A stretch of DNA of 64,000 nucleotides, from assembly GCF_004421105.1 (NCBI RefSeq), contig NZ_CP038033.1:3243659-3307658 (forward strand), written 5' to 3'. The stretch comes from Nitrosococcus wardiae (lineage in GTDB: Bacteria; Pseudomonadota; Gammaproteobacteria; Nitrosococcales; Nitrosococcaceae). This document shows, piece after piece, positions 2,933 to 21,752 of the stretch. Position 1 is the stretch's first letter. Each line of letters opens with the position of its first letter. A program made the position numbers and the translations under genes. The notes beneath the pieces were generated by a model that saw nothing but the letters and a program-made list of their open reading frames with translations, did no database searches and had not been told where the DNA came from.

Positions 2933-3649
2933 TTAGGTCCGGATAAGGGTAATTCCCACAGAGGTGTAGGGATATCCATGAAAGCGCCGCATTTGGGGCT
3001 GTACAGTATTCCAATCCACTTGCAGATCAAGTTCACCCTCGAGGGTAAGTCCTGGGGCCTGAAGCAAATAATGACGCAGGTGCTCTTCGTCAAAAAAATT
3101 CCAATCCACACGGAACGGTTCACCCTCTCCCTCATACCAGATCTCAGCATTGGCATCCTTGAAATAGTCAGTAGTAATCATCAGCCGCCCACCGGGCTGG
3201 GTCACCCGACGTAGCTCCGCTAGCGCCTGCGGAATCCCCCCATAACCCAAATGCTCGATGACTGAAATGCAGAATACCGCATCGAAACTTTCGTCGGCGA
3301 AAGGAAGATTCGTGAGTCCGGCGTTGACATAATCAATGTGTACACCATGAAGATTACCTAGTCTTGCGGGGACAGACAAATCGACTCCCGTTACCTGATG
3401 CCCAAGCTCGGCAAGATAGACGGGAAAAATAGAAGCGCCACAACCTGCGTCCAAGATGCTGCTGCCAGGCGACAGCCGGGCGCGCTCCAATGCCCAAGGA
3501 TATTCCCATCGCTTGCTAGGATGCAAATAAGAAATGGCTTCACGCCCGATAAGTTCATCAAGCCGCTTCAGGATATGGGCGAAGAAAGGCTCATCAAGTT
3601 CCCGCAGATCCAAGGGTCGATTGGGTACACTTCTTTTTGCTTCCGTCAT
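2933..3649 (-). CDS. class I SAM-dependent methyltransferase
   Basis: This 238-residue protein has SAM motif I 'ILDAGCGAS' at residues 65-73, the acidic end of strand 2 ('VTGVDLS'), 'FDAVFCISVIEHLGY' as motif IV/V, and 'GGRLMITTDYF', the usual order of a class I (Methyltransf_11-like) fold. It is the last gene of the minus-strand operon that begins at 7152. Its ATG shares one base with the TAA of the GT9 transferase, so translation is probably coupled. A role in methylating a sugar or lipid intermediate of the glycan locus is inferred from context; the substrate is unknown. Confidence 0.85.
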   Translation of the reverse strand: MTEAKRSVPNRPLDLRELDEPFFAHILKRLDELIGREAISYLHPSKRWEYPWALERARLSPGSSILDAGCGASIFPVYLAELGHQVTGVDLSVPARLGNLHGVHIDYVNAGLTNLPFADESFDAVFCISVIEHLGYGGIPQALAELRRVTQPGGRLMITTDYFKDANAEIWYEGEGEPFRVDWNFFDEEHLRHYLLQAPGLTLEGELDLQVDWNTVQPQMRRFHGYPYTSVGITLIRT

Positions 3650-4761
3650 TATGCGCCTCCTCTGCTAAACTGACTTGACTGCTGGGGCTCAAAGGAGTGG
3701 CAGAGTACTCGTTCGAGTGCTGCCGTGACTTGTTCCACCGATACCGCTGAAATACAGCTTTCTCTTCCTATTAAACAACGGTTTTGAAGGAGGCAGGGTG
3801 AAGGGCCAAACCGATCCGTAACCCGGTGCGAGCACTCGGACCCGCTACTTACGGCAACCGTGCCCGCGGGTAGATAAACCCGCTGGGAAGTCGGCCCAAA
3901 GACCGCCACAGTAGGTACATCCATGGCTGCCGCTATGTGCATCAAGCCGGTATCGTTGCTGAGAAAAGCTCCACAGCAGGCAATCAGGGCTGCTGTTTGT
4001 TGTAGGTGAAACGGCGGCACAAACTCAGCGCGCCCGGGAAGCACAGCCTGCGCCAGCAACTCCCGTGCGACTTTCTCCTCGCCAGGAGCACTAAATACTA
4101 AAATCGGTCTTCCCTGTTCGCCTGTGAGCCAACGCACCACCTTACCCAACTGCTCCAGGGGCCAGCGTTTAAGTTCAGTAGAGGCAATGGGGGCAATACC
4201 CACCGCCACTCGGTCACCAAGGCCCCGCTGATAACAAAAATGCCGAGCAGATTGGCATACTGCCTCTGAGATGTGGAGGTTAGGCTCCGGATGACTTCCA
4301 GTCTCTGCCAAACCCCACGCCTGGACGGCGCTGCGCCAAATCGAACGAACCCCACGTCCTTCCAGGGGTTCCTCGTTAGTCTCGAAGCTACTTTCGGTGT
4401 TCAATACCGGAATGGCGGCCGCTGAGATGACTTCCCTGACCCCCACCACAGCATGTGAAGCATCTAGGACCTGATCGAAAGCGCCCGCAATGAGCCATTC
4501 CCCTAAACGCTCTCGTGCCGCCGCTGTACCGCGATGGCCCCAGTGTTGGAAGCCAAAGCGTTGAGCCGGAATTACCGCATCAAAATCAGGATCACCTTCC
4601 AATAATGCCACTGCAGGAGCAGCGCCCAAAGCCGTGAGATGAGCCTTCGGCAAACGCGATCGCAACCCCCGCAGCGCAGGCAGCTCCATCACTAAATCGC
4701 CGATACCATAGCGAAGACAAATAAGTAAGCGGTTTGGACTCTCTACCGCCATTGCTTGCAT
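3649..4761 (-). CDS. glycosyltransferase family 9 (heptosyltransferase-like)
   Basis: This 370-residue GT-B protein has the N-terminal 'YGIGDLVMELPALRGLR' and the C-terminal nucleotide-sugar motif 'NDTGLMHIAAAMDVPTVA' followed by 'FGPTSQRVYLP', both characteristic of the GT9/heptosyltransferase family. Such enzymes transfer a sugar from an ADP- or similar nucleotide-activated donor at the inner membrane, classically to lipopolysaccharide core. Here the gene sits between two methyltransferases and ends flush with the start of the downstream one, so its acceptor is probably the product of this locus rather than the conserved LPS core. The stretch after the GPTS motif is rich in Cys, which is seen in several GT9 proteins. 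Confidence 0.88.
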   Translation of the reverse strand: MQAMAVESPNRLLICLRYGIGDLVMELPALRGLRSRLPKAHLTALGAAPAVALLEGDPDFDAVIPAQRFGFQHWGHRGTAAARERLGEWLIAGAFDQVLDASHAVVGVREVISAAAIPVLNTESSFETNEEPLEGRGVRSIWRSAVQAWGLAETGSHPEPNLHISEAVCQSARHFCYQRGLGDRVAVGIAPIASTELKRWPLEQLGKVVRWLTGEQGRPILVFSAPGEEKVARELLAQAVLPGRAEFVPPFHLQQTAALIACCGAFLSNDTGLMHIAAAMDVPTVAVFGPTSQRVYLPAGTVAVSSGSECSHRVTDRFGPSPCLLQNRCLIGRESCISAVSVEQVTAALERVLCHSFEPQQSSQFSRGGA

Positions 4762-4764
4762 CCG

Positions 4765-5601
4765 CTACCAATCATCGGACTCTTCGCCGGAGAAAAAACA
4801 TTGCTTGGAAGCACGCCGCTCGTGACCTATAGCGGTTTCATACTCGTGTCGGTTCCAACCTTGGGCACAACCGGGCGTGCTTGGATCAGGCTTGCAGATA
4901 TAAAGTTCATGTCCTGGGTGGGAAACGACCTGCATGCCGCAGGTACGAAGCATGGCTTCGATACAGGCATGGTTAGGAACCCACCAATTAGTAGGATCAT
5001 CTGCGAAACGGCCCTCGATGAAAGCCATCTTGGGCCAACCCGCATCGCACAGAAGTTCGCGCTCATCGAAACGACGGCCATCTGTACCAGAGAATACTTC
5101 CGTTCCCGGCAGGGTCATACTTTGGAAACAGAAGAGCCGGCGGGCCTTTTGAGTCACGATATCTAAACCAAGCAGAGGATAGCGCAAGTGATACATTACC
5201 CCAAGAAAGAGAACTAGATCATAAGAGTCTGTGTCACCGGCCAAATCGTAGACTTGTCTTTGGCAAAACTGGATCTGTTCAGCAAGCCCAAACTGCTCCG
5301 CCGCCCACCTAGCCTGGCGCAGGTAATGAGCATTGCTATCGATGGCTGTCACATAAGCTCCACGGCGCGCCAATTCAAAACTGTAAAAGCCGGCATTACA
5401 ACCTACATCCAGCGCGGTCCAGCCAGCTAAATTATCTGGCAGTCCAATAGCCAGTTCCTGCCATTTATAGGCGGGGAAATCGCCGAGAAAGTGTTCGGGT
5501 GCCGTCTGAATACCATTCGGTAGATGTAGATTATGGAACCAGGGGGCTAGGGAATCGATCTTCTTTTGGATCGACTCCGGTTCTGCAGCGCGCTTCTCCA
5601 T
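4765..5601 (-). CDS. SAM-dependent methyltransferase, Rta_06860-like
   Basis: This 278-residue methyltransferase starts at ATG 5601. That choice is supported by GGAGAG 7 bases upstream and by position, right at the TGA of the phosphatase; upstream in-frame ATGs would overlap the phosphatase. It opens with 'SLAPWFHNLHLPNGIQT', then SAM motif I 'ALDVGCNAGFYSFELARRG' at about residue 63, and 'YDLVLFLGVMYHLRYP'. I recall this signature from the TIGR04290-type family found in conserved oligosaccharide clusters; this is recall, not a search. A conserved 'NWWVPNHACIEAMLR' near the C-terminus also fits. It probably methylates a sugar intermediate of the locus. Confidence 0.82.
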   Translation of the reverse strand: MEKRAAEPESIQKKIDSLAPWFHNLHLPNGIQTAPEHFLGDFPAYKWQELAIGLPDNLAGWTALDVGCNAGFYSFELARRGAYVTAIDSNAHYLRQARWAAEQFGLAEQIQFCQRQVYDLAGDTDSYDLVLFLGVMYHLRYPLLGLDIVTQKARRLFCFQSMTLPGTEVFSGTDGRRFDERELLCDAGWPKMAFIEGRFADDPTNWWVPNHACIEAMLRTCGMQVVSHPGHELYICKPDPSTPGCAQGWNRHEYETAIGHERRASKQCFFSGEESDDW

Positions 5602-5602
5602 T

Positions 5603-6223
5603 TCACTTCTCTCCATGCCTAAGAAAGGATAAGTTGTCCCTATGATTGAGACAAAGCACCCGCGGCGTAGAGGTGCCGATTTCCACAGCACTGATGGAGG
5701 CAGGATCAATTTCAAAGCGGGTAATAAAGTCCAGGGGGATTCCTAAAAGATAAGCAAACAAGGTCTTGAGAGGATCGCTGTGACTGATTAAAACCACCGA
5801 GCCCTCTGGGTATTCCCCACGTAACCTTTCCAACCCTTGCGCCATACGCAACTGTACCTCAGCCAAAGATTCGCCTCCGGGTACCCGATATAACCCTCGA
5901 TAACGGTTATATTCCGTCCAGTAAGGATTAGCAGCCAATTCCTCAATAGAATAGCCCTGCCAATCGCCATAATCGATTTCGTTAATCTCAGGGACGATAC
6001 GAGTGTTTAGCCCGCACTCATCAGCCAGAGGCTGGGCAGTTTCTTGAGCCCGCTCCAAGGGACTTGTACAAAGAGCCTGCAGGGGAACATTCCGCAAGCG
6101 CTCAGCTAATTGCCTCGCTTGCCTCCATCCCTGGGCATTGAGATGCACACCCGGTTCGCGGCCAGTCAGAACGCGGCCCAGAACATTGGTTTCCCCATGA
6201 CGCACACAAAGAAACAGTGTCAT
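5603..6223 (-). CDS. histidine phosphatase family protein
   Basis: This 206-residue branch-1 histidine phosphatase (phosphoglycerate mutase-like) carries the catalytic 'RHGE' at residues 8-11, 'TSPLERAQETAQPL', and the second catalytic His in 'VVLISHSDPLK'. It overlaps its upstream neighbour by one base and the downstream methyltransferase follows immediately, so it belongs to the 7152-2933 operon. In this context it may remove phosphate from a sugar phosphate or lipid-linked intermediate; the substrate cannot be read from sequence. It has no signal peptide, so it is expected in the cytoplasm. Confidence 0.87.
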   Translation of the reverse strand: MTLFLCVRHGETNVLGRVLTGREPGVHLNAQGWRQARQLAERLRNVPLQALCTSPLERAQETAQPLADECGLNTRIVPEINEIDYGDWQGYSIEELAANPYWTEYNRYRGLYRVPGGESLAEVQLRMAQGLERLRGEYPEGSVVLISHSDPLKTLFAYLLGIPLDFITRFEIDPASISAVEIGTSTPRVLCLNHRDNLSFLRHGEK

Positions 6224-7152
6224 TACTTGCTACTGCTGTGACGGATAGCTCCAGCCGCCAGGTGATCCCGCTCTGGCAAAACGTAGCGAGTTACCACCTG
6301 GGTGGCGAACTCCGCAAACTCGCCAAGATCAAGGGGTGGGCTGGTATGGCAAGCGCGCTGGCCGCGACTAGGAGGAGTAAAACACAAAGTGATCGTCACA
6401 TCGAAATCTTGCAACATTTCCATTTGCTGATCGAACCAAGCAACCGCCCCCGGCCGGTGCCAATCCGCCCAACTGATACCCGTCCGTAGACGACGAATCC
6501 CCAAACGCCGCAACCAATCGACAGCGAACGCTAACCGATTATCACCGAAATGGAACCACTGACAGATGCCAAAGGCAGGATCAAAATGCTGCAGCGCCGG
6601 CTTAGGTGTTCCATCGGCCCGGATCAATCCCATGTGAAAGTGACGGTAATAGGAGCTGCCTTCGCTTTCCTTATGGCGGGTCGTTGCGCCCCAAGATGGT
6701 GGAAGATCCAGTAAGCTGTACCAGTAGACTCGCTCTGACCAATTGCGCAACAGCTCCAAAGTTCGCTGCAGACCAAACACCTGAACTTCATCCGCTCCGA
6801 AGGTGGATACGCCGACTTCGGCCACCCACACAGGCAACTGCGCCACCTCTTCAATCTCCCCGATCTTGGCTGGCCATTCATCAATCTTCCAATGGTTCCA
6901 GTCCAGGGGAAAACCATGCACTGCCACAGCATCGACGGCCTCCAGGGTGCCATAGCTGCGCAACAGCCGAATAAAATTAGGATCAATGGGGGAAATCCCA
7001 CCAAGCACGATAGGCAAATCCGGCACTAATCTACGGATAGCCTCAGAAGACTGTTGAACCATGGCTGCAAACTGCCGCCACTTAGGATCTATTTCAAAGT
7101 CCCAATGAGAAAGATTATTCGGCTCGTTCCACAGTTTAATTGCTTCAATCAT
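6223..7152 (-). CDS. GH39-like beta-xylosidase-type protein with unusual domain order
   Basis: This 309-residue protein opens with 'MIEAIKLWNEPNN', placing the NEP acid/base Glu (E10) at the very N-terminus. The nucleophile candidate is E112 in 'VWVAEVGVSTFG'. Residues about 194-290 then contain what looks like the first strands of the same TIM barrel: 'WLRRLGIRRLRTGISWADW', 'FDVTITLCFTPPSRG' and 'HTSPPLDLGEFAEFA'. In a classical GH39 enzyme that part precedes the NEP motif. The gene is therefore either circularly permuted or made of two barrel portions. No signal peptide is present. It is the first gene of the minus-strand operon and diverges from UDP-xylose synthase, so a xylose-related role is a reasonable inference. 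Confidence 0.75.
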   Translation of the reverse strand: MIEAIKLWNEPNNLSHWDFEIDPKWRQFAAMVQQSSEAIRRLVPDLPIVLGGISPIDPNFIRLLRSYGTLEAVDAVAVHGFPLDWNHWKIDEWPAKIGEIEEVAQLPVWVAEVGVSTFGADEVQVFGLQRTLELLRNWSERVYWYSLLDLPPSWGATTRHKESEGSSYYRHFHMGLIRADGTPKPALQHFDPAFGICQWFHFGDNRLAFAVDWLRRLGIRRLRTGISWADWHRPGAVAWFDQQMEMLQDFDVTITLCFTPPSRGQRACHTSPPLDLGEFAEFATQVVTRYVLPERDHLAAGAIRHSSSK

Positions 7153-7419
7153 TGCTTTTCATCTTGGGTTATTCAATACCTGAATGTGTTGAGGGTACTC
7201 AACAGATATCATGCATATTTCACACCAGTAGGTGATCTCGCTTTCCCTCTACCAGGAAACAAATACTTGAACCCAATAGTCCTCGTAAAATTCCCCTAGC
7301 CATTCCACGGCCCACGAAAAAATTGCATAGCCAGTGTAATCTTTACATATGATTCAGAACCTTAGATGAATATAGCGGCAGAGAATAGCCTCTTATCAAT
7401 TCCTGATAATTATCCAAGT

Positions 7420-7446
7420 AGCTGAATTGATTGAAGCAATTCAGCT
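7420..7446. promoter_or_regulatory. inverted repeat in the divergent promoter region
   Basis: The 382-base region between the xylosidase-like gene (start 7152) and UDP-xylose synthase (start 7535) holds no gene. It contains a perfect 10-bp inverted repeat, AGCTGAATTG and CAATTCAGCT, with a 7-base loop. Its TGATTGAAGCAATT core also occurs, on the opposite strand, in the first codons of the xylosidase-like gene at 7138-7151. It could be an operator for the divergent pair or a leader hairpin of the synthase mRNA. Confidence 0.45.
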
Positions 7447-7534
7447 GTACGGGGACACTTCCCTGCACCTGGAATATTTCTTGCGTCACAATAACTTAAG
7501 CGTGCGCCCAGACAACCTCACAGGAGAAGAAAGA

Positions 7535-8527
7535 ATGAAGCGAGTGTTAGTAACAGGCGGTGCTGGCTTTCTAGGACGTCACTTGTGTGCTCGCCTGCTC
7601 CAAGAAGGCTGCCAGGTGTTTTGTATGGACAACTTCTATACGGGTTCAAAAGATAATATTCGCGAGTTTCTCGACTACTCCTGCTTCAAAATGATTCACC
7701 ATGATGTGTGCCTTCCTTTTTACCTAGAGGTAGATGAAATCTACAATTTGGCCTGCCCTGCAAGCCCCATCCATTATCAACGGGATCCGGTACAAACCCT
7801 CAAAACGAATGCCTATGGTGCTATTAATATGCTGGAGCTTGCCAAACGGCTCCAGGTGAAAATCCTGCAGGCGTCCACAAGCGAAGTCTACGGCAATCCT
7901 CAGCAACATCCCCAGGACGAAGAATACTGGGGACATGTTAACCCTATTGGCGCCCGCTCCTGTTATGATGAAGGCAAACGCTGCGCTGAAAGCCTTTTTT
8001 TCGCTTATCATCAACAACATCAATTGCCCGTAAAGGTCGCCCGTATCTTCAACACCTACGGACCCTATATGCAATGCGAAGATGGGCGCGTCATATCGAA
8101 TTTTATCGTCCAAGCGCTACACCACAAGCCCATTACACTCTATGGCAACGGCTCACAGTCACGATCATTCTGCTATGTAACTGACCTAATCGAAGCCCTG
8201 TTCCGCCTCATGCACTCGCCTGCGAAGATCACCGGCCCTATCAATCTGGGTAATCCGCAAGAGCTCACCGTGCTTGAGCTAGCCCAGATGGTGCGCCGCC
8301 TTACCAATTCCCGCTCAAAGATCGTTTTCCGGCCTCTTCCTGGGGATGACCCCCAACGGCGGCGGCCCGATATTCTCCGTGCTCAGGAATTGCTTAGCTG
8401 GCAGCCTCGGATTGAACTCGAAGCGGGTCTTATGCACACTATCACCTATTTCGATAAATTGCTGAGCCATACTCCCCAACCTGCATCCTATAGCGCTCAA
8501 CTGGCGATGGGATTGGAGTCGCCCTAA
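7535..8527 (+). CDS. uxs: UDP-glucuronate decarboxylase (UDP-xylose synthase)
   Basis: This 330-residue extended SDR enzyme starts at ATG 7535, 8 bases after AGGAGAAG. The frame is open further upstream, but that extension is not family-like. It has the NAD-binding 'GGAGFLG' at residues 8-14, 'CPASPIHYQRDPVQTLKTN', 'STSEVYGNP', the catalytic 'SCYDEGKR' (YxxxK) and 'RIFNTYGPYM', the classic UXS signature. It oxidatively decarboxylates UDP-glucuronate to UDP-xylose in the cytoplasm. It is the only plus-strand gene of the locus and converges on the CgeB operon with 6 bases between stops. It supplies a xylose donor to the neighbouring transferases. Confidence 0.92.
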   Translation: MKRVLVTGGAGFLGRHLCARLLQEGCQVFCMDNFYTGSKDNIREFLDYSCFKMIHHDVCLPFYLEVDEIYNLACPASPIHYQRDPVQTLKTNAYGAINMLELAKRLQVKILQASTSEVYGNPQQHPQDEEYWGHVNPIGARSCYDEGKRCAESLFFAYHQQHQLPVKVARIFNTYGPYMQCEDGRVISNFIVQALHHKPITLYGNGSQSRSFCYVTDLIEALFRLMHSPAKITGPINLGNPQELTVLELAQMVRRLTNSRSKIVFRPLPGDDPQRRRPDILRAQELLSWQPRIELEAGLMHTITYFDKLLSHTPQPASYSAQLAMGLESP

Positions 8528-8533
8528 CTGGTT

Positions 8534-9625
8534 TCAATGAGTCTCTGCACCCAATCCCGCAAAGCACTCCTCGATATAGCTTTCTAGCTCTTTCACCCGC
8601 TGGGCAGCGGTGTGATCCGCAAGGACACGGCGGCGCGCCTGCTCGCCTAAGGCACAGCGGTGCTCCTCAGGCATTGTTTGGAGAAAGCTCACCACTTCCT
8701 TGGCACTGCTCGCAAGCAAAATTTCCGTCCCTGGATGGAAGAATTCATCGATTCCTGACCACCCATCACTGATAATGGGAATGCCGCAAGCAGCGGCTTC
8801 AAATAAGCGCACACTGGGCGCATAGCCGCTCTGGGCCATATCTGCACGGGTAATATTAAGGGTGAAGCGTTGGCGATTATAAAAGCTTCCATGCTCACTG
8901 GGCGGCAAGTGCTCAATGCGTTCCACATTGGAGGGCCACTGAACGGTGGTAGGATAGGAAGGCCCTGCCACTACAAAACGACCCTCAAACCACGCCCGTG
9001 CCGGTGCATTCAGCAAGCATTCCAACATCGGTTGCCGATCTGGGGCGTAGGTGCCCAAATATCCCAGATCCCAAGAGGCCTCAACCACTTGCGGGTAATA
9101 AGCTTCTGGATCCACCGAGCAGTATAGTGCCCGTGCGCGCTGGGCTTCGAACTCGTGCTCGAGCCGCTGCAGCGTTGGACCACCCGTAAACGATAAATAA
9201 AGGTCATAACGCCGGATCAGATCCGGGGAAATGTACTCTGCTCTACCCTGGGCCAATGCAGTCAGCGTCACGGGGGTATCAATATCGTAAAAGGCGACGA
9301 TTCCCCGAGCATGCGCCAACACCCAATGTCCCACCTTGATTCCATCCGGCACGTAGGAACCAATAATGACTAGATCGGCATCCTCAATGATGCCTTGATA
9401 AGTATCAAATAATTCCTCAAGGTTTTCATACAAATGGGTCCGCCCATAGGGGGGGCTCGGTAAATCCCGCGTATCTCGATACCATGGCATATCACGCTCC
9501 AGGAATATCACCTGGTGCCCACGCTGGACCAATTCGCGCACTAGAGCTCGATAGGTAGTGGCGTGCCCATTACCCCATGAGGAGGTGATTGACAAACCTA
9601 ATATCACCAACTTCCGTGGGCTCAT
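8534..9625 (-). CDS. CgeB-like glycosyltransferase (third tandem copy)
   Basis: This 363-residue GT-B protein of the CgeB/DUF3880 type has the N-terminal 'ILGLSITSSWGNGHATTYR', 'FYDIDTPVTL', 'DLYLSFTGGPTL' and the C-terminal 'PSVRLFEAAACGIPIISD' with 'GIDEFFHPGTEILLA'. The last two are the sugar-nucleotide binding region with the E-A-A-x-G pattern. It lacks a membrane segment. Its start overlaps the preceding gene's stop by 4 bases. It is the distal gene of the seven-gene operon and is paralogous to the next two upstream genes. Donor and acceptor are unknown. Confidence 0.85.
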   Translation of the reverse strand: MSPRKLVILGLSITSSWGNGHATTYRALVRELVQRGHQVIFLERDMPWYRDTRDLPSPPYGRTHLYENLEELFDTYQGIIEDADLVIIGSYVPDGIKVGHWVLAHARGIVAFYDIDTPVTLTALAQGRAEYISPDLIRRYDLYLSFTGGPTLQRLEHEFEAQRARALYCSVDPEAYYPQVVEASWDLGYLGTYAPDRQPMLECLLNAPARAWFEGRFVVAGPSYPTTVQWPSNVERIEHLPPSEHGSFYNRQRFTLNITRADMAQSGYAPSVRLFEAAACGIPIISDGWSGIDEFFHPGTEILLASSAKEVVSFLQTMPEEHRCALGEQARRRVLADHTAAQRVKELESYIEECFAGLGAETH

Positions 9626-10731
9626 AAGACCGCTCCTCGATAGGATGGGAATGAATAACCTACGAGCACCGACTCAAGCTGGGCTGCACGATGGGCGTAA
9701 GTATGCTCCTGTAATATCCGCTTCCGGGCCGAGGCACCCATCACGCGCGCCCGTTCGGGAGTCAATTCCGCCAGATGTTCAGCCACTTGCGCCCCATCCG
9801 CTGCAATGAGTACTTCTTGATCCGGCTCAAGAAAATCCTCAATACCCTCCCACAAATCGGTAATAAGACAAGCGCCGGCACCGGCAGCTTCAAACACCCG
9901 GGTAGCCGGGGAGAATCCGTAGCGGGCCATGCTTTCCCGAGAGATATTAAGTACGGCTGTAGGGGTAGAGTTGAAGGCATTATGATCCCGGGTATAAACG
10001 TGACCGCAATAGCGCACGTTGCCAGGCATAGGCTTGTCACCCCAACCGCTTCCGCCCAGAAGGAACTGCTTTCCAGGTAATCGAGCGGCAGCATCCAGAA
10101 AGAAATATTCCACCCGCGCTTCGCGATCGGGCAGTCGATTGCCAAGAAAGCCTAGGGCAGCCTCGAACCGAGAATCCGGTGCGGCAGGATAATGAGTTCC
10201 AGGATCAAGGGCATTGTAGATAGGGATACACTGACGCGCGCCAACAGCGCGATAGCCCTCCACCACGGGATTGCCGCCACCATAAGTCAGTACCAAATCA
10301 TACCGCGCCACCTGCCCGTGGAAGGGATCGGAAGGATTAAGGCGCATCCGATCTAGGGTTGCTGGCGCGTCCACATCCCAGTACACACAGAGAGTATTAG
10401 GGCCTGCCAATTCCGGCACGACTGCCTCCAGATACTCATCAAATACACCAATGCCGCTTGCCTTGACAATGACATCCGCACTCCGAGCAGACTCAAGCGC
10501 ACGCTCGAGTTCTGCAGTCCCCTCTGCTCCATAGACCACGACCTCTGCCCAAGGGGGGTCTTCCATATCCCGATGTCGTTGCCGCTCATAGGCATCTGGC
10601 TCGAAGAATTGCACCCGATGCCCACGGTCGTGCAATGCACGAATGAGACCGCGGTAGTAGGTTGCCGCGCCATTCCAGTAGGCCGAGACCAGACTCGAAC
10701 CAAAAAAAGCGATCTGTAATCCCCTTTTCAT
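9622..10731 (-). CDS. CgeB-like glycosyltransferase (second tandem copy)
   Basis: This 369-residue paralogue of the flanking genes carries 'FFGSSLVSAYWNGAATYYRG' at the N-terminus, 'CVYWDVDAPATLDRM', 'YDLVLTYGGGNPV', and the C-terminal 'PATRVFEAAGAGACLITD' with 'GIEDFLEPDQEVLIA'. The N-terminal 'WNGAATYYRGL' is the conserved element of this family in glycan clusters. Three base pairs separate it from the upstream copy and a 4-base overlap couples it to the downstream copy. The three copies differ enough in sequence to be specialised for different linkages; that is inference. Confidence 0.85.
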   Translation of the reverse strand: MKRGLQIAFFGSSLVSAYWNGAATYYRGLIRALHDRGHRVQFFEPDAYERQRHRDMEDPPWAEVVVYGAEGTAELERALESARSADVIVKASGIGVFDEYLEAVVPELAGPNTLCVYWDVDAPATLDRMRLNPSDPFHGQVARYDLVLTYGGGNPVVEGYRAVGARQCIPIYNALDPGTHYPAAPDSRFEAALGFLGNRLPDREARVEYFFLDAAARLPGKQFLLGGSGWGDKPMPGNVRYCGHVYTRDHNAFNSTPTAVLNISRESMARYGFSPATRVFEAAGAGACLITDLWEGIEDFLEPDQEVLIAADGAQVAEHLAELTPERARVMGASARKRILQEHTYAHRAAQLESVLVGYSFPSYRGAVL

Positions 10732-10734
10732 AGC

Positions 10735-11874
10735 CTATTTCCTGAGGTGAGGTTGAGATTCATGGGATACATTGAGCTCATGATAAATACTCAATAACTC
10801 ATCGACCCGATGGGCGCAGGTATGGGCGCCCAGAAGAGTGCGGTAGCCATGGGATGCTAATTCAGCTGCCCTATCGCGGTCATTGATGATTTCCCGTAGG
10901 CAGCGCCTCATTTCCTCGCCGTTGCGGGCAATAAGAAAATCTTCACCTGGAGTAAACAGACCTTCGGCATCCTCCCATGGCGTACAGACCAGAGGGATTT
11001 TGCAAGCGAGCGCTTCGAAAGGTCGAATGGTAGGAATACCAGGTAAAGCTTCTACATAAGGGCGCCGTGGGATATGCACAGTCACACAGTGGCGGGCAAA
11101 GACCTCCGGTACTCGGGAGTTTTCCAACCACCCCCGGTAAGTAATACCGCGCTCTCGGAGCTGTGCCTGCGCCTGTTGGGGATAACGCACTCCATAAACA
11201 TTCGTGCGCAACTGCTCTTCCATCACCGGGTCGAACAGAAACTCATAGAGCTCACTTGTACGTTCCTCATCTCCCCAATTACCCACCCATACCACTTCCG
11301 CTTCCCTGGGCCTATCATCCAGGGGGTGAAATATCCGCGTATCGGCAGCTTCATGCCAAACCCATGCCTGTTGGGCCCACCCTTCAGTAAGATACCGATC
11401 CCGGATCACCTCGCCAAAGGCCAATACACCATCATAATGTTGCAGATCGTACGCGGCCATGCTTTGGCTATCAGTAAACGACCGATGGTGCGTATCGTGA
11501 AATAAAAGCCGGTATCCCCGATGGCGCGACCGGTGCTCGCCAATTCTCTGGACCAATTCATGGGCGTTCCACTCATGGACGATAACCAAATCGACAGCGT
11601 CAAGAGCACGCTCCAGGTCTAAGTCTGCTAACGTATACTCCTGCTCCTGGTTTGCAAGTTCAGGATACCGTTGCTGAAACGCAGTCACAGCGCCTTCTCC
11701 GTAGTGCTGAATCAAATTAGTTACACTCCAGCCTCCACGGGGAACATAGACAACCAGCTCGTGGCCCCGCGCCATTATTTCGCTTGCGATACCCCGCAGG
11801 AAATGGGCGTTACCATTATTCCAATCCGATACTAATGAATGGTAGAACAGCGCTATTCGCATGCTCGCCCTCAT
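10735..11874 (-). CDS. CgeB-like glycosyltransferase (first tandem copy)
   Basis: This 379-residue member has 'ALFYHSLVSDWNNGNAHFLR' at the N-terminus, 'YDGVLAFGEVIRDRYL', 'EVVWVGNWGDEERT' and a C-terminal 'TIRPFEALACKIPLVCTPW' followed by 'GLFTPGEDFLIARNGEEM'. The Rossmann-like second half matches GT-B transferases with a glycogen-synthase-like donor site. It starts inside the stop of the GT4 gene (4-base overlap). It is the most diverged of the three copies, with an Asn-rich 'WNNGN' where the others have 'WGNGH' or 'WNGAA'. Confidence 0.83.
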   Translation of the reverse strand: MRASMRIALFYHSLVSDWNNGNAHFLRGIASEIMARGHELVVYVPRGGWSVTNLIQHYGEGAVTAFQQRYPELANQEQEYTLADLDLERALDAVDLVIVHEWNAHELVQRIGEHRSRHRGYRLLFHDTHHRSFTDSQSMAAYDLQHYDGVLAFGEVIRDRYLTEGWAQQAWVWHEAADTRIFHPLDDRPREAEVVWVGNWGDEERTSELYEFLFDPVMEEQLRTNVYGVRYPQQAQAQLRERGITYRGWLENSRVPEVFARHCVTVHIPRRPYVEALPGIPTIRPFEALACKIPLVCTPWEDAEGLFTPGEDFLIARNGEEMRRCLREIINDRDRAAELASHGYRTLLGAHTCAHRVDELLSIYHELNVSHESQPHLRK

Positions 11875-12998
11875 GCTAAGGTAGCAGGTGCCTGGGCCTC
11901 GGAAAAATTAAGGCCCTCAAGCAAATCCTGGTAGAGGGCAAAATAAGTGGCCGCCATTCGCTCCAAGGTATACTTTCCCGCGCGCGCCGCAGCAAGATGG
12001 GCAATTGCTTCTCGCCGAGCGGGATCATCGATAAGGCGATTGATGGTGTCCTGCAGTGCCTGGGGATCATCTGCTGGAACAAAACAAGCTGCTCCATCCC
12101 ACAATTCTCGTAAACTATCGATGTCCCCAATCACAGGAGCACACTTTGCCAACGCAGCCTCAAGCACTGACAGACCGAATGGCTCGTAGCGGGCAGGCAG
12201 CGCATAAATGCTAGCCTGCCCGTACCAATGGGCGATGAATTCTGGTGCAAGCTGCCCTAAGATCCGGACATGGTCCAGTTCGACATGGCCCCCGTCGGGA
12301 TGTTTTATTTCGCCCGCCAGATAGACTGGCCACTGCAGGGATGGAGCGATATGGGCCAAGGTCGCCAAGTTCTTTGCCGCGTCCCAGGCCCGGCCCACGG
12401 CCAAAACATAAGGCTTTTTCTTCAAGCAAGCATATTCCAAATGCCTACGACCGTTGTAGACAACTGTGGTACGGGAAAGGGGGCCGTAATGAGACTTCAA
12501 GGCCGAAAGCATGGCACGGGAAGGTGCCACGACTAAATCTGCCCCCTGGAGCCCTTGTCGAACCCGCCACCGATAAGGGTCATAATCGATAGGTGGCTCC
12601 TTGGAAAAAACGGCGCGCCACCAGGAGAGCACGCAAGAATGGCCCACCACTAACCGCGGTGCCCGCCAATCGAGATCGCCATGGGAGTAGTGATTGAGAT
12701 GGACTAGATCGGGACAATATCGCCGTTCCAACTGCAGCAACCATTGTCCAGCCTGTTCAACATCCTTCCAGGGTGCGTCCATCCATTCGAGGCGAAAATG
12801 GCTTTCACACACCACCATATCAGGCACCTGCTCCACTTGGCGGCGTTGCTGGAAGGACAAGGGCGCCCCCATAGTGGCAAGTACCACCTGGACGCCATAG
12901 CGACGCAGGGCGGTAGCAAGTTGCAGCGCATAGACCCATACCCCCCCTACTGTATCAGCACTCATGAGAACGCGTAGAGTTCTCGGTTTCTTTCTCAT
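11871..12998 (-). CDS. glycosyltransferase family 4 protein
   Basis: This 375-residue GT-B retaining glycosyltransferase has 'GGVWVYALQLATALRRYG' near the N-terminus, 'LVHLNHYSHGD', 'VVYNGR', and the E-x7-E donor-site motif 'EPFGLSVLEAALAKCAPVI'. These are typical of GT4 mannosyl/glucosyltransferases acting on the cytoplasmic face of the membrane. Four-base overlaps with the genes on both sides mark it as a middle gene of the seven-gene operon. It probably adds one sugar of the same glycan as the CgeB-like proteins. Confidence 0.88.
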   Translation of the reverse strand: MRKKPRTLRVLMSADTVGGVWVYALQLATALRRYGVQVVLATMGAPLSFQQRRQVEQVPDMVVCESHFRLEWMDAPWKDVEQAGQWLLQLERRYCPDLVHLNHYSHGDLDWRAPRLVVGHSCVLSWWRAVFSKEPPIDYDPYRWRVRQGLQGADLVVAPSRAMLSALKSHYGPLSRTTVVYNGRRHLEYACLKKKPYVLAVGRAWDAAKNLATLAHIAPSLQWPVYLAGEIKHPDGGHVELDHVRILGQLAPEFIAHWYGQASIYALPARYEPFGLSVLEAALAKCAPVIGDIDSLRELWDGAACFVPADDPQALQDTINRLIDDPARREAIAHLAAARAGKYTLERMAATYFALYQDLLEGLNFSEAQAPATLA

Positions 12999-14293
12999 GA
13001 AGCTGCAGCGGCGCCAAGTTCCAGGTGTTCAAGGGGTCGAGGAAGCTCCTCTTGAATGTCGCTAAACTCAGAAAACATCTGCAAATAGTAGTCCACGGCC
13101 CGTTCCCACGCCAGGTCATCCGGCACGCCCCAAAGTTTTATATAATCTGGCGATCCCGGATAAGGGAACATGGGCACGGGTTTGTTCGCCCAGACGCCAT
13201 GGGCGAGCAAGGTCTGCCGCCATTCCTCTACCTGGGCATGATCGTCGACCTGGGAATCGAGCAAGCTGGCCTGGACGAAAGGAATATTGCGGCGCGCATA
13301 GATAAGCCGCTCTTGCAGCTGGACGGTTTTCAACCGGCAATGCTTATTGAGCAAGTCCCGGCCTCTCTCACTGAGACTCTCTACCCCTGCCTCCACGGAG
13401 ACACAGCCGCTCTCACCGAGCAGATCCAGCATTTCCGGCTTCCAAAGATCGATGCGGGTCTGAATGCCAAATTGGACGGGGCGCTGTTTCAACGCCTGCA
13501 GCAGCGGCCGCTGAGGGAGAAAAATCTCATCAATAAAATAAACATATCTCACTCCTTGGCTGATAAGTCCGTCTAGCTCTTCTAGGAGTGTATCCAGCGG
13601 TCGGCGGCGGAATTGGTCGCGATGATCCGTCTTGGCGCAGAACGAACAGGCATAGGGACACCCCCGCGAAGCTTCAATTTCTGCGCCGAATCCCTGCTGC
13701 GGCTCATCGAAGCGATGATGATGATGCCGATGTGCGCTCAAAAAGTGCTGAGGCCAATGCAGCGCGGGTAATGAAGCTAGATTCACCATTTGCGGTCCGC
13801 CCTGCACCCGCCATTGCTCATCGTGTAGATAGGCAATGCCACTCACCTCTTGCAGTCGCGATAAGTGGCTGCCCAGCTGAACGAGTACCTCTTCGCATTC
13901 CCCGAGCACGGCAATATCGCCGCCCACTTTACGGAGCGCCGCACGGGGCGTGGTCGAGGCATGGGGGCCCACGAGAATCCGGATACCCGCAGCTGCGCCA
14001 AGCGCTTGGACCAACTGTTGAGGCACGCGCAGTTCTGGCGGCGGACAGCGCCAAAAGAGATAACTGGGGGCCGTGGGGATGACGGTCATATCAGGTCCGA
14101 AAGTAGCTACGCGGGCGCAGAGTTCGCTTTGCGAGAGATGATCTAAAGTGGCATCAAGGAGAAGCACCTCGTGCCCAGCGCCCTCAAGCATCTGCTTAGC
14201 GTATCCCAATTCAAGTGGCAAATGAGGATCCCGGCAGCCGAAGTAGATGCTTCCTTCAAAGGTCCAGATCGGGTTAATCAATGCATATCTCAT
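12995..14293 (-). CDS. B12-binding-domain radical SAM protein of the glycan cluster
   Basis: I place the start at ATG 14293, in a 4-base ATGA overlap with the epimerase stop; this gives 432 residues. An N-terminal cobalamin-binding-like Rossmann domain ('LPLELGYAKQMLEGAGHEVL', about residues 25-135) is followed by the radical SAM core with C212, C216 and C219 in 'SRGCPYACSFCAK'. A His run 'HRHHHHR' at 188-194 is unusual. Such enzymes use a [4Fe-4S] cluster and SAM for radical chemistry, often methylation at unactivated carbon or sugar rearrangement. I recall a TIGR04295-type family restricted to similar oligosaccharide loci. The substrate is probably a nucleotide sugar or glycan intermediate (inference). 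Confidence 0.85.
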   Translation of the reverse strand: MRYALINPIWTFEGSIYFGCRDPHLPLELGYAKQMLEGAGHEVLLLDATLDHLSQSELCARVATFGPDMTVIPTAPSYLFWRCPPPELRVPQQLVQALGAAAGIRILVGPHASTTPRAALRKVGGDIAVLGECEEVLVQLGSHLSRLQEVSGIAYLHDEQWRVQGGPQMVNLASLPALHWPQHFLSAHRHHHHRFDEPQQGFGAEIEASRGCPYACSFCAKTDHRDQFRRRPLDTLLEELDGLISQGVRYVYFIDEIFLPQRPLLQALKQRPVQFGIQTRIDLWKPEMLDLLGESGCVSVEAGVESLSERGRDLLNKHCRLKTVQLQERLIYARRNIPFVQASLLDSQVDDHAQVEEWRQTLLAHGVWANKPVPMFPYPGSPDYIKLWGVPDDLAWERAVDYYLQMFSEFSDIQEELPRPLEHLELGAAAAS

Positions 14294-16248
14294 AAGACGA
14301 CCTGCTCTTTTTCTGAGTGTGCAGCAGGGCGAGAGGCAGTCAGCTCCTGCTGCATCCATTCATAAAGCTGCCGCACCCCTTCCTTGCTTCCAATGGCTGG
14401 ACGCCAGCCCGTGACCCGCTGGAATTTGCTCGTATCTGAAACATAGTAACGCTGATCACTTGGACGCCAGTCTTTCCTGTACACCACCGGAACCCGATGA
14501 TGCAAAACCGCCAGTTGATCTACCAATCCTTGCAGGCTGAGTACATTCTGGGGTCCACCTCCCATATTGAAGGCCTCACCCGCAATGGCTGGAAGGTGAT
14601 TAGCCGCAGTTAGCAACGCCTTTACTAAATCATCCACATAGAGCACATCACGCACCTGAAGTCCATCGCCATAGAAGGTGATGGGTGTTTCACTCACCAC
14701 CTGGCGGATAAAATGGGCAACCCATCCCTGATCCTCATTACCAAATTGCCGTGGACCATAGATGCAGCTCATACGCAAAACCGTCGCAGGCAAGCCCAGG
14801 GTACGGGCGTAATCAAGCACATACTGATCGGCAGCGCCCTTGGAACAGCCATAAGGGCTGCAGAATTTCAGCGGGCGGGATTCATCAATCCCGCGGCTAC
14901 GAATCACATCATCCACTGGGGCATAGCCAGAGGCGGTCAGTTGCAGTTCTAAATCGTCGAGATCACCATAAACTTTGTTAGTGGAAGTAAACACCAGGCC
15001 CGGCGGATATCGCCGACGACGCGCTGCTTCCAGTACATTCAAAGTCCCTACCGTATTCACATCGTGATCAAAAAACGGTTGTTTGAGACTGGTAGTCACT
15101 GCTACCTGAGCTGCAAAATGAAATATCCTGCAGGCCCGCTGTACAGCATACTGGACCGCGTCTCGATCCCGCACATCTGCCAGCAGCACTTCGATCTGAT
15201 TAGGAAAGCGCTGGTGTAACCACTCCAAATTGCACTCGGTACCAGGGCGGGAAAGATCATCGAGCACCAAAATCTGATGACCCTGGGCGGCAAGCCGTGC
15301 CGCCACATTGCAACCGATGAACCCAGCACCGCCAATGACCAGTTCCCGATCGCGCCCCCCCTTTTTTCCACTACCCTGGCCCCAGGTGGCAACCTCCTGC
15401 ACTCTGGCGTATCCGCCGCCCTGCAGCTGCAGCAAGCGTCCCAGCAGAGCGGGTTTACCATCGGCAGTACGCAGGCCACGTCCCGGCTGCCGTTCGCCCT
15501 CGGCGGGCACCGCAGTCAAATTTAGATAAACCCGTTCCACCGCCCCATTAAGCAAGCCACCCCATTCTCCCACAAGGAGTCCAATGCCGCTGTCACGCCG
15601 AGGGGGGATCGGATCCGGGGTTAACCAACGCTCCAGCCTCTGGGGAGCGGGTAGAACCTCATCCACTTTAGCAAGCTCACCGTCCTTATCGGCCTGGGAA
15701 AACCGTCGAAAAGCAAGCGCTTGCACCGAATCGAATAGCCCCTGGCGATAGGCGATGGCCAACCAACGCGCATCCAATACGAGCCCACCCAAACAAAGGC
15801 TTGGCGCGGATGATTCGCACAAAAGCTTGGATAGCAACCCTGCTGATTGGGGAGAGGCATCTGGCCATGAGGGGACTCCCAACAAATCAGCACATTCCAA
15901 CCATTGGATGCTGTCCCCCAACTCATTGCACGCTTCCCCAAAAAACCTTTGATAAGCTAAAGCTTCATGGACCCATGCCGGAGGAAGTTGATGGGAATGG
16001 TGAGGCAGGAGACGATGGAGTGCAATGACCACCTCAAAGCGCTCGGCCGCTCTAGCGATTAGCCAACCATACCATGCCCGTGCCTTAGGGCTATTCCATT
16101 GGGCTAACGTCACCGCCAAGCGGATATCTCGAAACCCAGCAGCACAGGCATCATCCAGTAGTTGTTCAGCTTGCCGGTACTCACCTAGGGCAAACCACTC
16201 GTTTATACCACAGCGGGCCTGTTTTCTTCCGGGTGCTCCGGCCATCAT
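14290..16248 (-). CDS. NAD-dependent sugar epimerase with N-terminal TIM-barrel-like domain
   Basis: This 652-residue protein has two parts. Residues about 306-640 are an extended SDR: 'GGAGFIG' at 306-312, 'HFAAQVAVTTSLKQP', 'STNKVYGDL', YxxxK in 'SPYGCSKGAADQY' and 'RMSCIYGPRQFG', closest in style to CDP-paratose/tyvelose 2-epimerases. Residues 1-300 have no Rossmann features; 'ACAAGFRDIRLAVTLAQW' and 'ERFEVVIALHRLLP' resemble barrel strands of glycoside hydrolases, and 'GLLVGEWGGLLNGAVERVYL' follows. A fused glycosidase-like domain on a sugar epimerase is uncommon. It overlaps both neighbours by 4 bases in the seven-gene operon. Confidence 0.8.
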   Translation of the reverse strand: MMAGAPGRKQARCGINEWFALGEYRQAEQLLDDACAAGFRDIRLAVTLAQWNSPKARAWYGWLIARAAERFEVVIALHRLLPHHSHQLPPAWVHEALAYQRFFGEACNELGDSIQWLECADLLGVPSWPDASPQSAGLLSKLLCESSAPSLCLGGLVLDARWLAIAYRQGLFDSVQALAFRRFSQADKDGELAKVDEVLPAPQRLERWLTPDPIPPRRDSGIGLLVGEWGGLLNGAVERVYLNLTAVPAEGERQPGRGLRTADGKPALLGRLLQLQGGGYARVQEVATWGQGSGKKGGRDRELVIGGAGFIGCNVAARLAAQGHQILVLDDLSRPGTECNLEWLHQRFPNQIEVLLADVRDRDAVQYAVQRACRIFHFAAQVAVTTSLKQPFFDHDVNTVGTLNVLEAARRRRYPPGLVFTSTNKVYGDLDDLELQLTASGYAPVDDVIRSRGIDESRPLKFCSPYGCSKGAADQYVLDYARTLGLPATVLRMSCIYGPRQFGNEDQGWVAHFIRQVVSETPITFYGDGLQVRDVLYVDDLVKALLTAANHLPAIAGEAFNMGGGPQNVLSLQGLVDQLAVLHHRVPVVYRKDWRPSDQRYYVSDTSKFQRVTGWRPAIGSKEGVRQLYEWMQQELTASRPAAHSEKEQVVL

Positions 16249-17357
16249 ACTGCCAGCCCTCGCGCGAGAAGCTCATCCCGAGCCTCATCGACCCGATCGA
16301 CCGGCTGTTGTTCCGCTAACCATTCGGCGAATGTGCTGAGACCTTCCTCCAGCGAGACTTCGGGCTCAAAGCCAAGAATGCGCCGTGCCCGGCTAATGTC
16401 GGCAAAGCAGTGGCGGATGTCGCCTTTGCGATACTCTCCAGTGATGTTTGGCATGAGATCGCTACCGATTACCTGGGCAGTCTTTTGAGCGAGTTCGAGA
16501 ATGGAAATGCTACGGCCGCTACCTATATTGAAGGCCTGCCCGGCAGCATCGGGAATCTCAAGGGCTTGTCGGCAGGCGCGGGCCACATCTCGCACATGGA
16601 CAAAATCACGCCGCTGGTGTCCATCCTCAAAGACTAAAGGAGGACGACCATTGAGCAGCCGACTGCCAAAAATAGCGAGCACACCCGTATAAGGATTTGA
16701 TAGCGCTTGGCGTTCGCCATAGGTGTTAAAAAACCGCAGCGCCACCACAGGAATATCGTAAGCCTGTCCAAAGAGCAAACACATCCGCTCTTGATCCATC
16801 TTCGATAGGGCATAAATGGAGGCCAACGCCGGATGCTTAGACTCGGGGGTTGGAACGGGCTCAAGCTTTTCCCCTTCTGGCCCGCTGACTTCCCACTCGC
16901 CACTGCGGAGCCGAGCAATAGAACGTTCCACTTCGATGAGGTTGCCCGTCGCAGAGCGATAAAGCCCTTCACCATAAATGCTCATGCTCGAAGCCACGAC
17001 AAGGCATTCAACCGGCCGCTTCACAAGCTGTTCGAGCAGCACGGCAGTACCTCGTACATTGGTATCCAGATAGGATTCAATTTCATACATACTTTGTCCC
17101 ACGCCTACCCGGGCTGCGAAGTGGAATACTCCACTTACGCTTTCCAACGCCTGCGCAACGGCTTCAGGATCCCGCACATCCCCTCTTTGCAGTTCTACTT
17201 CAGGATTTAAATAGCCTGGGCGTTGCCGATCGAGACCGTGGACTTGTGCTTCCAGGCTATCGAGTATCCGCACTCGGTAGCCTGCAGCGAGTAGTTCATC
17301 GGCCACATGGGAACCAATGAAACCCGCCCCGCCAGTAATCAAAATTGTTTTTTCCAT
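16245..17357 (-). CDS. NAD-dependent epimerase/dehydratase
   Basis: This 370-residue extended SDR has 'GGAGFIG' at residues 8-14, 'ESVSGVFHFAARVGVGQSM', 'VASSMSIYGEG', the YxxxK catalytic pair in 'IYALSKMDQE', and 'RFFNTYGERQ'. A long insert between the SMSIYGEG and YALSK motifs (residues about 133-177) is characteristic of dTDP-rhamnose/UDP-glucose 4-epimerase-like enzymes in polysaccharide loci. It is the first gene of the seven-gene operon, preceded by an AT-rich 388-base region that must hold the promoter. It probably interconverts C4 epimers of a nucleotide sugar; the exact sugar is not readable. Confidence 0.87.
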   Translation of the reverse strand: MEKTILITGGAGFIGSHVADELLAAGYRVRILDSLEAQVHGLDRQRPGYLNPEVELQRGDVRDPEAVAQALESVSGVFHFAARVGVGQSMYEIESYLDTNVRGTAVLLEQLVKRPVECLVVASSMSIYGEGLYRSATGNLIEVERSIARLRSGEWEVSGPEGEKLEPVPTPESKHPALASIYALSKMDQERMCLLFGQAYDIPVVALRFFNTYGERQALSNPYTGVLAIFGSRLLNGRPPLVFEDGHQRRDFVHVRDVARACRQALEIPDAAGQAFNIGSGRSISILELAQKTAQVIGSDLMPNITGEYRKGDIRHCFADISRARRILGFEPEVSLEEGLSTFAEWLAEQQPVDRVDEARDELLARGLAV

Positions 17358-18717: not shown

Positions 18718-18736
18718 TATATATATATTCTAGAAT

Positions 18737-21734: not shown

Positions 21735-21752
21735 TTTAAGCCAAAATTATGG

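Follow-up and report, generated by a model that had tools for sequence, protein, structure and literature searches.

A circularly permuted PslG-like barrel in a conserved glycan-assembly locus of Nitrosococcus wardiae

The stretch of DNA examined here, called the window, comprises 64,000 nucleotides of Nitrosococcus wardiae (contig NZ_CP038033.1, positions 3,243,659 to 3,307,658), the genome of which is a single contig of 4.02 Mb. A dense glycan locus lies at positions 2933-17357 of the window, with 13 open reading frames (ORFs), 12 on the minus strand and one, for a UDP-xylose synthase, on the plus strand. One of the genes, termed xyl, encodes a relative of glycosidases whose barrel is circularly permuted, and a second barrel of the same ancestry is fused to an epimerase encoded nearby. 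The genes are the following.

16245-17357, minus strand: epi1, extended short-chain dehydrogenase/reductase (SDR), NAD-dependent nucleotide-sugar epimerase/dehydratase (PF01370, 174 bits)
14290-16248, minus strand: epi2, fusion of a (beta/alpha)8 barrel (residues 1 to about 290) with a domain resembling CDP-tyvelose 2-epimerase (residues about 301-640)
12995-14293, minus strand: B12-binding radical SAM protein, TIGR04295 (686.5 bits, cut-off 400; PF04055, PF02310)
11871-12998, minus strand: GT4 glycosyltransferase (PF13439, PF13692)
10735-11874, minus strand: first PF13524 glycosyltransferase, presumably 'CgeB-like' (PF13524, 121 bits)
9622-10731, minus strand: second PF13524 glycosyltransferase (135 bits)
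8534-9625, minus strand: third PF13524 glycosyltransferase (131 bits)
7535-8527, plus strand: UDP-xylose synthase (UDP-glucuronate decarboxylase, UXS; 2b69, E 1e-116)
6223-7152, minus strand: xyl, GH-A-type glycosidase, circularly permuted as judged from sequence, predicted acid/base E10 and nucleophile E112
5603-6223, minus strand: histidine phosphatase (PF00300, 171 bits)
4765-5601, minus strand: class I methyltransferase (methyltransferase 1), TIGR04290 (326.1 bits, cut-off 300)
3649-4761, minus strand: GT9 glycosyltransferase, lineage-specific (PF01075, 89 bits)
2933-3649, minus strand: class I methyltransferase 2, lineage-specific (PF08241, 76 bits)

The strands are compatible with three transcription units (minus 17357-8534, plus 7535-8527 and minus 7152-2933), as proposed in an earlier description made from the letters of the window without database searches (the sequence-only reading), and all thirteen ORFs were found where it had placed them. 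Five junctions overlap by 4 bases (epi1/epi2, epi2/radical SAM, radical SAM/GT4, GT4/first PF13524 transferase and second/third PF13524 transferase) and two by 1 base (xyl/phosphatase and GT9/methyltransferase 2), which accounts for the seven overlaps of 4 bases or nearly so that had been counted. The first and second PF13524 transferases are separated by 3 bases, as are methyltransferase 1 and GT9, and the phosphatase and methyltransferase 1 by a single base. Three starts were corrected, giving 432 residues instead of 454 for the radical SAM protein (12995-14293), 278 instead of 316 for the TIGR04290 methyltransferase (4765-5601) and 330 instead of 366 for the UDP-xylose synthase (7535-8527).

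The families announced from the letters (radical SAM, three PF13524 transferases, GT4, GT9, two methyltransferases, phosphatase and epimerases) were matched in NCBIfam and Pfam scans, which gave three extended SDR enzymes in all. The two marker families that had been named, TIGR04295 and TIGR04290, both scored above their curated cut-offs, the former over 422 of 422 model positions. The label 'CgeB', used in the sequence-only reading and here, was returned by no search. The assignment of the UDP-xylose synthase agrees with a match of 393 bits to human UDP-glucuronate decarboxylase UXS1 (2b69). With the GalE model, epi1 scored 160 bits, under the cut-off of 262, its nearest solved relative being UDP-glucose 4-epimerase (4zrm). 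The phosphatase scored 176 bits with the model of the putative phosphomutase MSMEG_4193, under the cut-off of 203.85 for membership.

Circular permutation of the glycosidase and the fused barrel

In clan GH-A, the acid/base glutamate follows strand 4 of the barrel, in an NEP motif, and the nucleophile glutamate lies at strand 7. The N-terminus of the xyl protein, MIEAIKLWNEPNN, corresponds to strand 4 with the acid/base residue, and its C-terminal end shows homology with strands 1-3 of the barrel that relatives carry as part of epi2. Both glutamates are found, as E10 and E112. When 31 xyl proteins, those of the relatives being trimmed to 8 residues before WNEPNN, were compared by BLASTP with 15 fused proteins, 348 of the 386 matching pairs had at least two segments, in swapped order in all 348. 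A repeat with 14 canonical barrels gave 434 pairs, 406 with at least two segments, of which 402 were swapped under a stricter length filter. Split alignments were absent from 930 permuted-permuted and 182 canonical-canonical control pairs. The permuted profile matched PslG in two swapped pieces (197-294 on PslG 21-129 and 2-164 on PslG 131-301; E 4e-7), each weak when taken singly (independent E-values of 1.5 and 0.0028), and the canonical profile matched it in one collinear piece (10-269 on 20-306, E 7.5e-9). When the permuted and canonical profiles were aligned to each other with hhalign, strands 4-8 alone were aligned and the alignment ended at the junction. The AlphaFold2 (AF2) model of xyl (mean predicted local distance difference test, pLDDT, 84.5; predicted template modelling score 0.85) contains eight barrel strands, with E10 right after the first and E112 in the fourth. 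As judged from sequence, xyl is a circularly permuted (beta/alpha)8 relative of PslG-like, clan GH-A-type barrels, in which strand 4 comes first.

An artefact of annotation or assembly, in which two partial genes, or one barrel's end and the next one's start, were taken for a single gene, might be suggested by the long and open upstream frames of GC-rich relatives and by the trimming applied in the pair test, but this explanation is rejected, its probability being very low, as a start codon (sought 3 to 11 codons upstream) precedes the conserved Trp by 7 codons in 28 of 30 relatives, and by 8 and 11 codons in the remaining two, the window's own ORF begins at this place, 29 full-length copies align over 322 columns (L034 and L083, cut at the locus end, being omitted), the control pairs are clean, the gene overlaps the preceding TIGR04290 gene by 4 bases in annotated plasmids of Azospirillum lipoferum and Bradyrhizobium, and AF2 places the eight strands in a single chain. 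The WNEPNN and nucleophile motifs are present in all 29 permuted sequences. Permuted (n = 29) and canonical (n = 14) barrels each fill one side of a fully supported tree branch, so that the permutation would most simply have a single origin.

No Pfam or NCBIfam family matched xyl at E 0.001, and no Pfam glycoside hydrolase family matched a canonical barrel (L016) at E 0.01. Kinship to a solved member of the GH39/PslG-like family was found, without a Pfam match and without the canonical strand order; because of the permuted order, xyl is described as related to this family and not filed in it. The gene had been called xylosidase-like. It is indeed a glycosidase relative, but its closest kin is the endo-beta-glucosidase PslG and not a xylosidase, and the permutation had been missed. 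Xylosidase as the true activity is unsupported, PslG being the sole confident solved relative; next come an arabinogalactan endo-galactosidase (7osk, E 0.01), a beta-glucosidase (0.18) and a beta-xylosidase (6uqj, 0.68). 'Beta-xylosidase' is the annotation label of xyl relatives in two plasmids. Structure searches with the permuted model (Foldseek and VIA-align) returned many unrelated (beta/alpha)8 barrels at similar scores, the best row being lacto-N-biosidase (Z 13.7). PslG (5bx9) ranked 47th (Z 11.4, root-mean-square deviation 3.5, 181 aligned residues, 24% identity, model residues 1-220). The other rows shown have identities of at most 12%, and no further enzyme was recognised as GH39 among the rows listed, which excludes nothing.

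That one epimerase is fused to a barrel had been seen from the letters, and the fusion exists; what had escaped notice is that the barrel is a canonical-order paralogue of xyl without catalytic residues. In the window, its acid/base loop is deleted and the nucleophile Glu is absent. The AF2 model gives it eight strands with lower confidence (overall pLDDT 77.1; 41-93 in the barrel blocks). It is best called a pseudo-glycosidase domain.

The state of both barrels was examined in the 84 genomes (21 + 54 + 9) covered by a search with the xyl profile, a set that excludes the genome of L017 and nine Mesorhizobium loci (L049, L054, L059, L062, L064, L066, L070, L085 and L090). The full-length permuted enzyme is encoded by 72 genomes, the canonical fused barrel alone by nine (L016, L025, L038, L060, L073, L080, L081, L097 and L135), and neither by three. 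Both glutamates are kept in eight of the nine canonical barrels, and four of these nine genomes are isolates or complete genomes (L080, L081, G315 and G265). Seven systems (the window, L013, L040, L048, L058, L061 and L089) combine the permuted enzyme with a fused barrel, which has lost the nucleophile Glu in all seven and also the acid/base Glu in all except L089. None of the 84 genomes was found to have two competent barrels, for which the chance probability is 6e-10 if phylogeny is ignored. Weak partial matches to the xyl profile occur elsewhere in the genomes of L053 (44 bits) and L040 (29 bits). By these residue patterns, the system generally has a single barrel with its catalytic residues complete, permuted and in trans or canonical and in cis. 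The keeping of a single working copy suggests that the pathway needs the glycosidase, through which the product of the TIGR04295/TIGR04290 genes would become accessible.

On the epi2 tree, which was made with a quick method and from which 16 of 94 systems were omitted (12 without an epi2 match over the threshold and 4 that failed the motif search), the barrel state needs five changes among labelled rows, and well-supported branches force at least three between the canonical group and all other rows. As several changes are needed, the barrel state does not reflect one inherited event. The row nearest to the window is that of the gammaproteobacterium Thiohalomonas denitrificans.

Two further loci depart from the usual layout. 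In Kastovskya (L143, 11832-13906), a deletion or an assembly fault has cut short both epi1 and the fused barrel where they meet. The epi2 frame at L065 (8070-9998) has a long N-terminal extension that the barrel profile no longer matches, perhaps because decay of the barrel is more advanced there.

Conservation and distribution of the system

Conservation was examined in a sample of 80 of 442 confirmed stretches, biased towards the window's closest relatives; some of L093-L101 repeat loci among the 80 (L096 is L059, and L099 is L049). Presence in the 50 loci with both 10-kb flanks was called with score thresholds of our own, that of the radical SAM gene being fixed by selection. ORF calling in GC-rich loci was mechanical, and clusters c17, c24 and c36 look by eye like antisense shadows. 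The 50 flanked loci contain epi1 in 49 cases, epi2 in 48, the radical SAM and GT4 genes in 50 each, and the first, second and third PF13524 transferases in 50, 47 and 46. All seven core genes are present in 43 loci, colinear on a single strand in 40; the exceptions are L013, L083 and L016, the last from a cyanobacterium with the third transferase upstream on the opposite strand. The conserved neighbourhood that had been proposed is thus borne out, both in gene set and in order.

The genes of the second module are less constant, with the phosphatase in 28 flanked loci, TIGR04290 in 24 and xyl in 22. An inositol-3-phosphate synthase gene is found in 22 and a nucleotidyltransferase gene in 12. 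The second module is often sited elsewhere, and genome-wide searches then recovered xyl in most such genomes. GT9 and methyltransferase 2 occur in none of the 50 flanked loci and have no match above 80 bits in the 80 loci. They are present in the second module of Thiohalomonas (L142), which consists of the synthase, xyl, phosphatase, TIGR04290, GT9 and methyltransferase 2 genes, an order that is that of the window's second operon once the leading synthase is set aside; the window's GT9 and methyltransferase 2 score 39% and 65% against these counterparts. Because they are shared with Thiohalomonas, the two genes belong to this lineage's version of the system. Compared with its relatives, the window has these two extra genes, has its inositol-3-phosphate synthase outside the locus, and has kept a dead fused barrel. 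The locus is probably a gammaproteobacterial variant of a widespread glycan-assembly system marked by TIGR04295 and TIGR04290.

Among 398 genomes of the same phylum, TIGR04290 was found in 14, and the glycosidase barrel in the identical 14; this set was defined with the xyl profile, and the TIGR04290 search reached it independently. TIGR04295 was found in 10 (E 1e-100 or better), all within the 14. An independent distribution of the families without a shared neighbourhood, which the sequence-only reading had named as the outcome that would speak against it, did not occur in these genomes. The four system genomes without TIGR04295 (G131, G265, G283 and G382) all have epi1, epi2, the first and second PF13524 transferases and UXS; GT4 and the third PF13524 transferase were seen in two of them on the ORF chart (L134 and L135). 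For L136, xyl and TIGR04290 were detected in genome-wide searches only. Since TIGR04295 is absent from 4 of the 14, the radical SAM step is optional.

The system is carried by Acidobacteriota, Cyanobacteriota, Myxococcota, Nitrospirota, Thermodesulfobacteriota and Pseudomonadota, with the core order largely retained. It had been described as a conserved 'rhizo-twelve'-type set; a conserved set it is, but one found in six phyla and not in rhizobia alone, and lacking TIGR04295 in 4 of 14 genomes. The name 'rhizo-twelve', used in that earlier reading, appeared in no family description retrieved, and neither it nor the two TIGR families were named in any open-licence paper found by literature search.

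Proposed pathway and its alternatives

The reading preferred here, to which a probability of about 0.6 is given, is that the locus is a variant of the TIGR04295/TIGR04290 glycan-assembly system, that it holds one complete barrel, permuted or canonical, and that it makes an O-methylated oligosaccharide in the cytoplasm. UXS would provide UDP-xylose, and the two other SDR enzymes further nucleotide sugars, such as a C-2 epimer (for example mannose from a glucose nucleotide); by analogy with its relatives, epi2 is a putative C-2 epimerase of a nucleotide sugar. GT4 and the three PF13524 transferases, joined by GT9 in the window, would then assemble a defined oligosaccharide, to be O-methylated by TIGR04290. 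Where present, the B12 radical SAM enzyme may introduce a further change such as C-methylation, and the retaining glycosidase, by analogy with PslG, may trim or transfer the chain. In lineages with an adjoining inositol-3-phosphate synthase, myo-inositol (phosphate) may serve as acceptor, with the histidine phosphatase removing the phosphate. The cytoplasmic site is suggested by the permuted chain, which leaves no room for a signal peptide, and by the fusion of the canonical form to an NAD enzyme. The presence of four or five transferases with no recognised polymerase or exporter among conserved neighbours points to an oligosaccharide, which the lack of a recognised exporter makes probably soluble and internal.

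The radical SAM protein has a B12-binding domain (PF02310, 35.2 bits, cut-off 32.1) and the cluster motif CxxxCxxC, invariant in 10 of 10 TIGR04295 sequences. Its nearest solved chains are weak matches (33-40 bits for the first four), and include a methylase and the apramycin oxidoreductase. Between the two domains, a segment His-x-His-His-His-His-Arg-Phe is present in all 10 sequences (alignment residues 187-194), possibly a metal site.

Several points weigh against the preferred reading. The counts of neighbours come from the biased locus sample. UXS lies near the core in 23 of the 50 flanked loci, which makes the 'xylose-containing' part of the methylated glycan that had been predicted weak, as it rests on this gene. 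The canonical barrel of L038 is truncated before the acid/base motif, so that the nucleophile alone is visible; the three genomes with neither barrel (L022, L039 and L078) are all fragmentary metagenome-assembled genomes (MAGs; contigs of 3.5-6.0 kb), and five of the nine canonical-alone genomes are MAGs or uncultured assemblies in which a permuted gene could have been missed. A few systems, such as L015 and L041, seem to lack epi2. Of 52 ORF clusters found in at least three loci, 15 were identified and 37 were scanned against Pfam by one member each, which left 21 of the 37 without a match. That none of the 52 clusters was recognised as a flippase, a polymerase, an ABC exporter or an initiating phosphoglycosyltransferase speaks for the reading, but the genomes elsewhere were not searched for exporters. 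Lastly, a set of 34 further system genomes, the majority chosen for the lack of an inositol-3-phosphate synthase in the flank, yielded the synthase in 6, none of which is acidobacterial, myxobacterial or cyanobacterial; it was found in none of nine canonical-barrel genomes (none of the seven among the 34); and the window genome's own synthase lies beside a likely CDP-alcohol phosphatidyltransferase gene (by eye; L103, 8163-10019).

Export of the product, as an exopolysaccharide or O-antigen-like glycan with the PslG-like enzyme as the usual accessory hydrolase of such clusters, is considered unlikely. GT9 and PF13524 enzymes are generally common in surface-glycan loci. PslG, which is the solved protein nearest to xyl, has its gene within the Psl biosynthesis cluster (PMC11912335). 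An unusual exporter could also hide among the 21 clusters without a Pfam match. The 16 matched clusters include a PhyR-type sigma domain, a response regulator, a CheB-CheR histidine kinase, alcohol and short-chain dehydrogenases, CDP-alcohol phosphatidyltransferase, COX1, COX2, PRC barrel, topoisomerase IB and phospholipase D, and none of the usual export or initiating enzymes. The permuted enzyme begins at strand 4, and the canonical barrel is fused to an NAD-dependent epimerase domain; such domains work in the cytoplasm.

It is equally improbable that the whole system is a mycothiol-like inositol-glycoside pathway in which GT4 glycosylates inositol phosphate. In the draw of 398 genomes, 12 of the 14 with the system also have the inositol-3-phosphate synthase, compared with 20 of the remaining 384, and the two system genomes without it are the two with canonical barrels. 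Its gene adjoins that of the glycosidase in Thiohalomonas and that of the phosphatase in Azospirillum and Bradyrhizobium, PIG-L deacetylase neighbours occur in 4 of the 50 flanked loci, and the L079 synthase matches the model of the synthase of mycothiol synthesis (TIGR03450) with 532 bits. This is under the cut-off of 638 and GT4 scores 44 bits with MshA, for a cut-off of 462. Unlike in mycothiol synthesis, the synthase is found in proteobacterial loci, where the only other mycothiol-like gene noticed was the PIG-L-like deacetylase, in few loci. The failure to detect the synthase in the other 28 of the 34 further genomes and in all nine canonical-barrel genomes means that inositol is not a general acceptor, and inositol as the universal acceptor is ruled out. 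In the window genome, the synthase gene (G000:C1:1274936-1276015) is 2 Mb from the locus; its product is closest to that of Thiohalomonas (67%) among 11 loci compared, and it may serve a phospholipid instead, given the likely phosphatidyltransferase gene beside it. The acceptor may differ between lineages, the inositol may come from a type of enzyme that the query missed, or the synthase may serve another purpose. A PF01066 (CDP-alcohol phosphatidyltransferase) cluster flanks the glycan locus in four Sorangium loci.

A wider account that builds on the preferred reading is put forward tentatively, at somewhat less than even odds. The permuted GH-A-type glycosidase would have arisen once and then, through transfer, have taken the place of its canonical relative time and again in a single cytoplasmic glycan pathway, while the fused barrel decayed to a pseudo-glycosidase on the epimerase. 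The pathway would make internal, O-methylated oligosaccharides, some of them headed by inositol, that form a class not yet described; many bacteria of soils, leaf surfaces and biocrusts would share them, and they would be linked to the survival of stress.

The surroundings of the locus were also recorded. In Mesorhizobium loci (L047, L059, L096 and others; clusters c10, c11, c12 and c14), genes for a PhyR-type regulator (PF22029, 28 bits), a response regulator and a CheB-CheR histidine kinase adjoin the system, which points to the general stress response. Neighbours that look stress-related (window 18250-20056; L094, L089, L016, L097, L149 and L150) include DUF4112, YihY/BrkB, PRC-barrel, zinc alcohol dehydrogenase, Ku, LigD, topoisomerase IB, trehalose and glycogen genes. 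At window 18737-20056, a HepT-like domain (PF01934) is fused ahead of the YihY/BrkB membrane protein. Several unrelated hosts have, close to the glycan locus, an operon for a cytochrome c oxidase whose subunit I is long (837 residues in the window, by eye; window 22778-26295), as if operon and locus were co-travelling (L040 2-2439, Pfam COX2; L083 399-2612, Pfam COX1; L076; L142 3290-5791; L150 2175-4694); the long subunit I is annotated ctaD in Tistrella. Cluster c9 (about 580 residues; L138 1010-2755, L015, L019 and L044) stands beside the system in 21 loci of Pseudomonadota, Acidobacteriota and one myxobacterium, and matched nothing in Pfam or NCBIfam (member L090) or, at E 1, in the PDB (member L138). 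At window 20808-22775, a plus-strand ORF of 652 residues (20817-22775) overlaps an opposite-strand cytochrome gene (20808-21734), and its real start is probably near 21753.

Comparison with known systems

The C-terminal domain of epi2 resembles CDP-tyvelose 2-epimerase, 1orr (E 8e-120 with the epi2 family profile) and TaTyvE (9rl0) being by far the top two matches. TaTyvE is described in PMC13098431 as converting CDP-glucose to CDP-mannose. The TNK segment set out there for TyvE is invariant in 14 of 14 epi2 sequences. Unlike TyvE, epi2 is fused to a barrel in some lineages, and the VAM segment appears as VAV.

The neighbourhood as a whole resembles that of TIGR04295 and TIGR04290, which NCBIfam lists as hypothetical equivalogs; the window passes both cut-offs, and its gene set and order match. 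The closest counterpart of xyl is PslG of Pseudomonas aeruginosa, a retaining endo-beta-glucosidase according to PMC11912335. The two share barrel sequence, the NEP acid/base motif, the nucleophile Glu and a site among glycosyltransferase genes. PslG has the canonical order, whereas xyl has the permuted one and leaves no space for an export signal at its N-terminus. As a natural circular permutation of a glycoside hydrolase, xyl can be likened to GH70 relative to GH13, and to MalS of GH13_19, whose barrels are active on alpha-glucans. It differs from them in clan and chemistry, and in that the permuted and the canonical form stand in for one another within a single gene set. No report of a natural circular permutation in clan GH-A was found in a literature search of open-licence papers. 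As the permuted and the ordinary glycosidase serve the same gene set in different genomes, the effect of the permutation on the enzyme can be asked by swapping the two forms.

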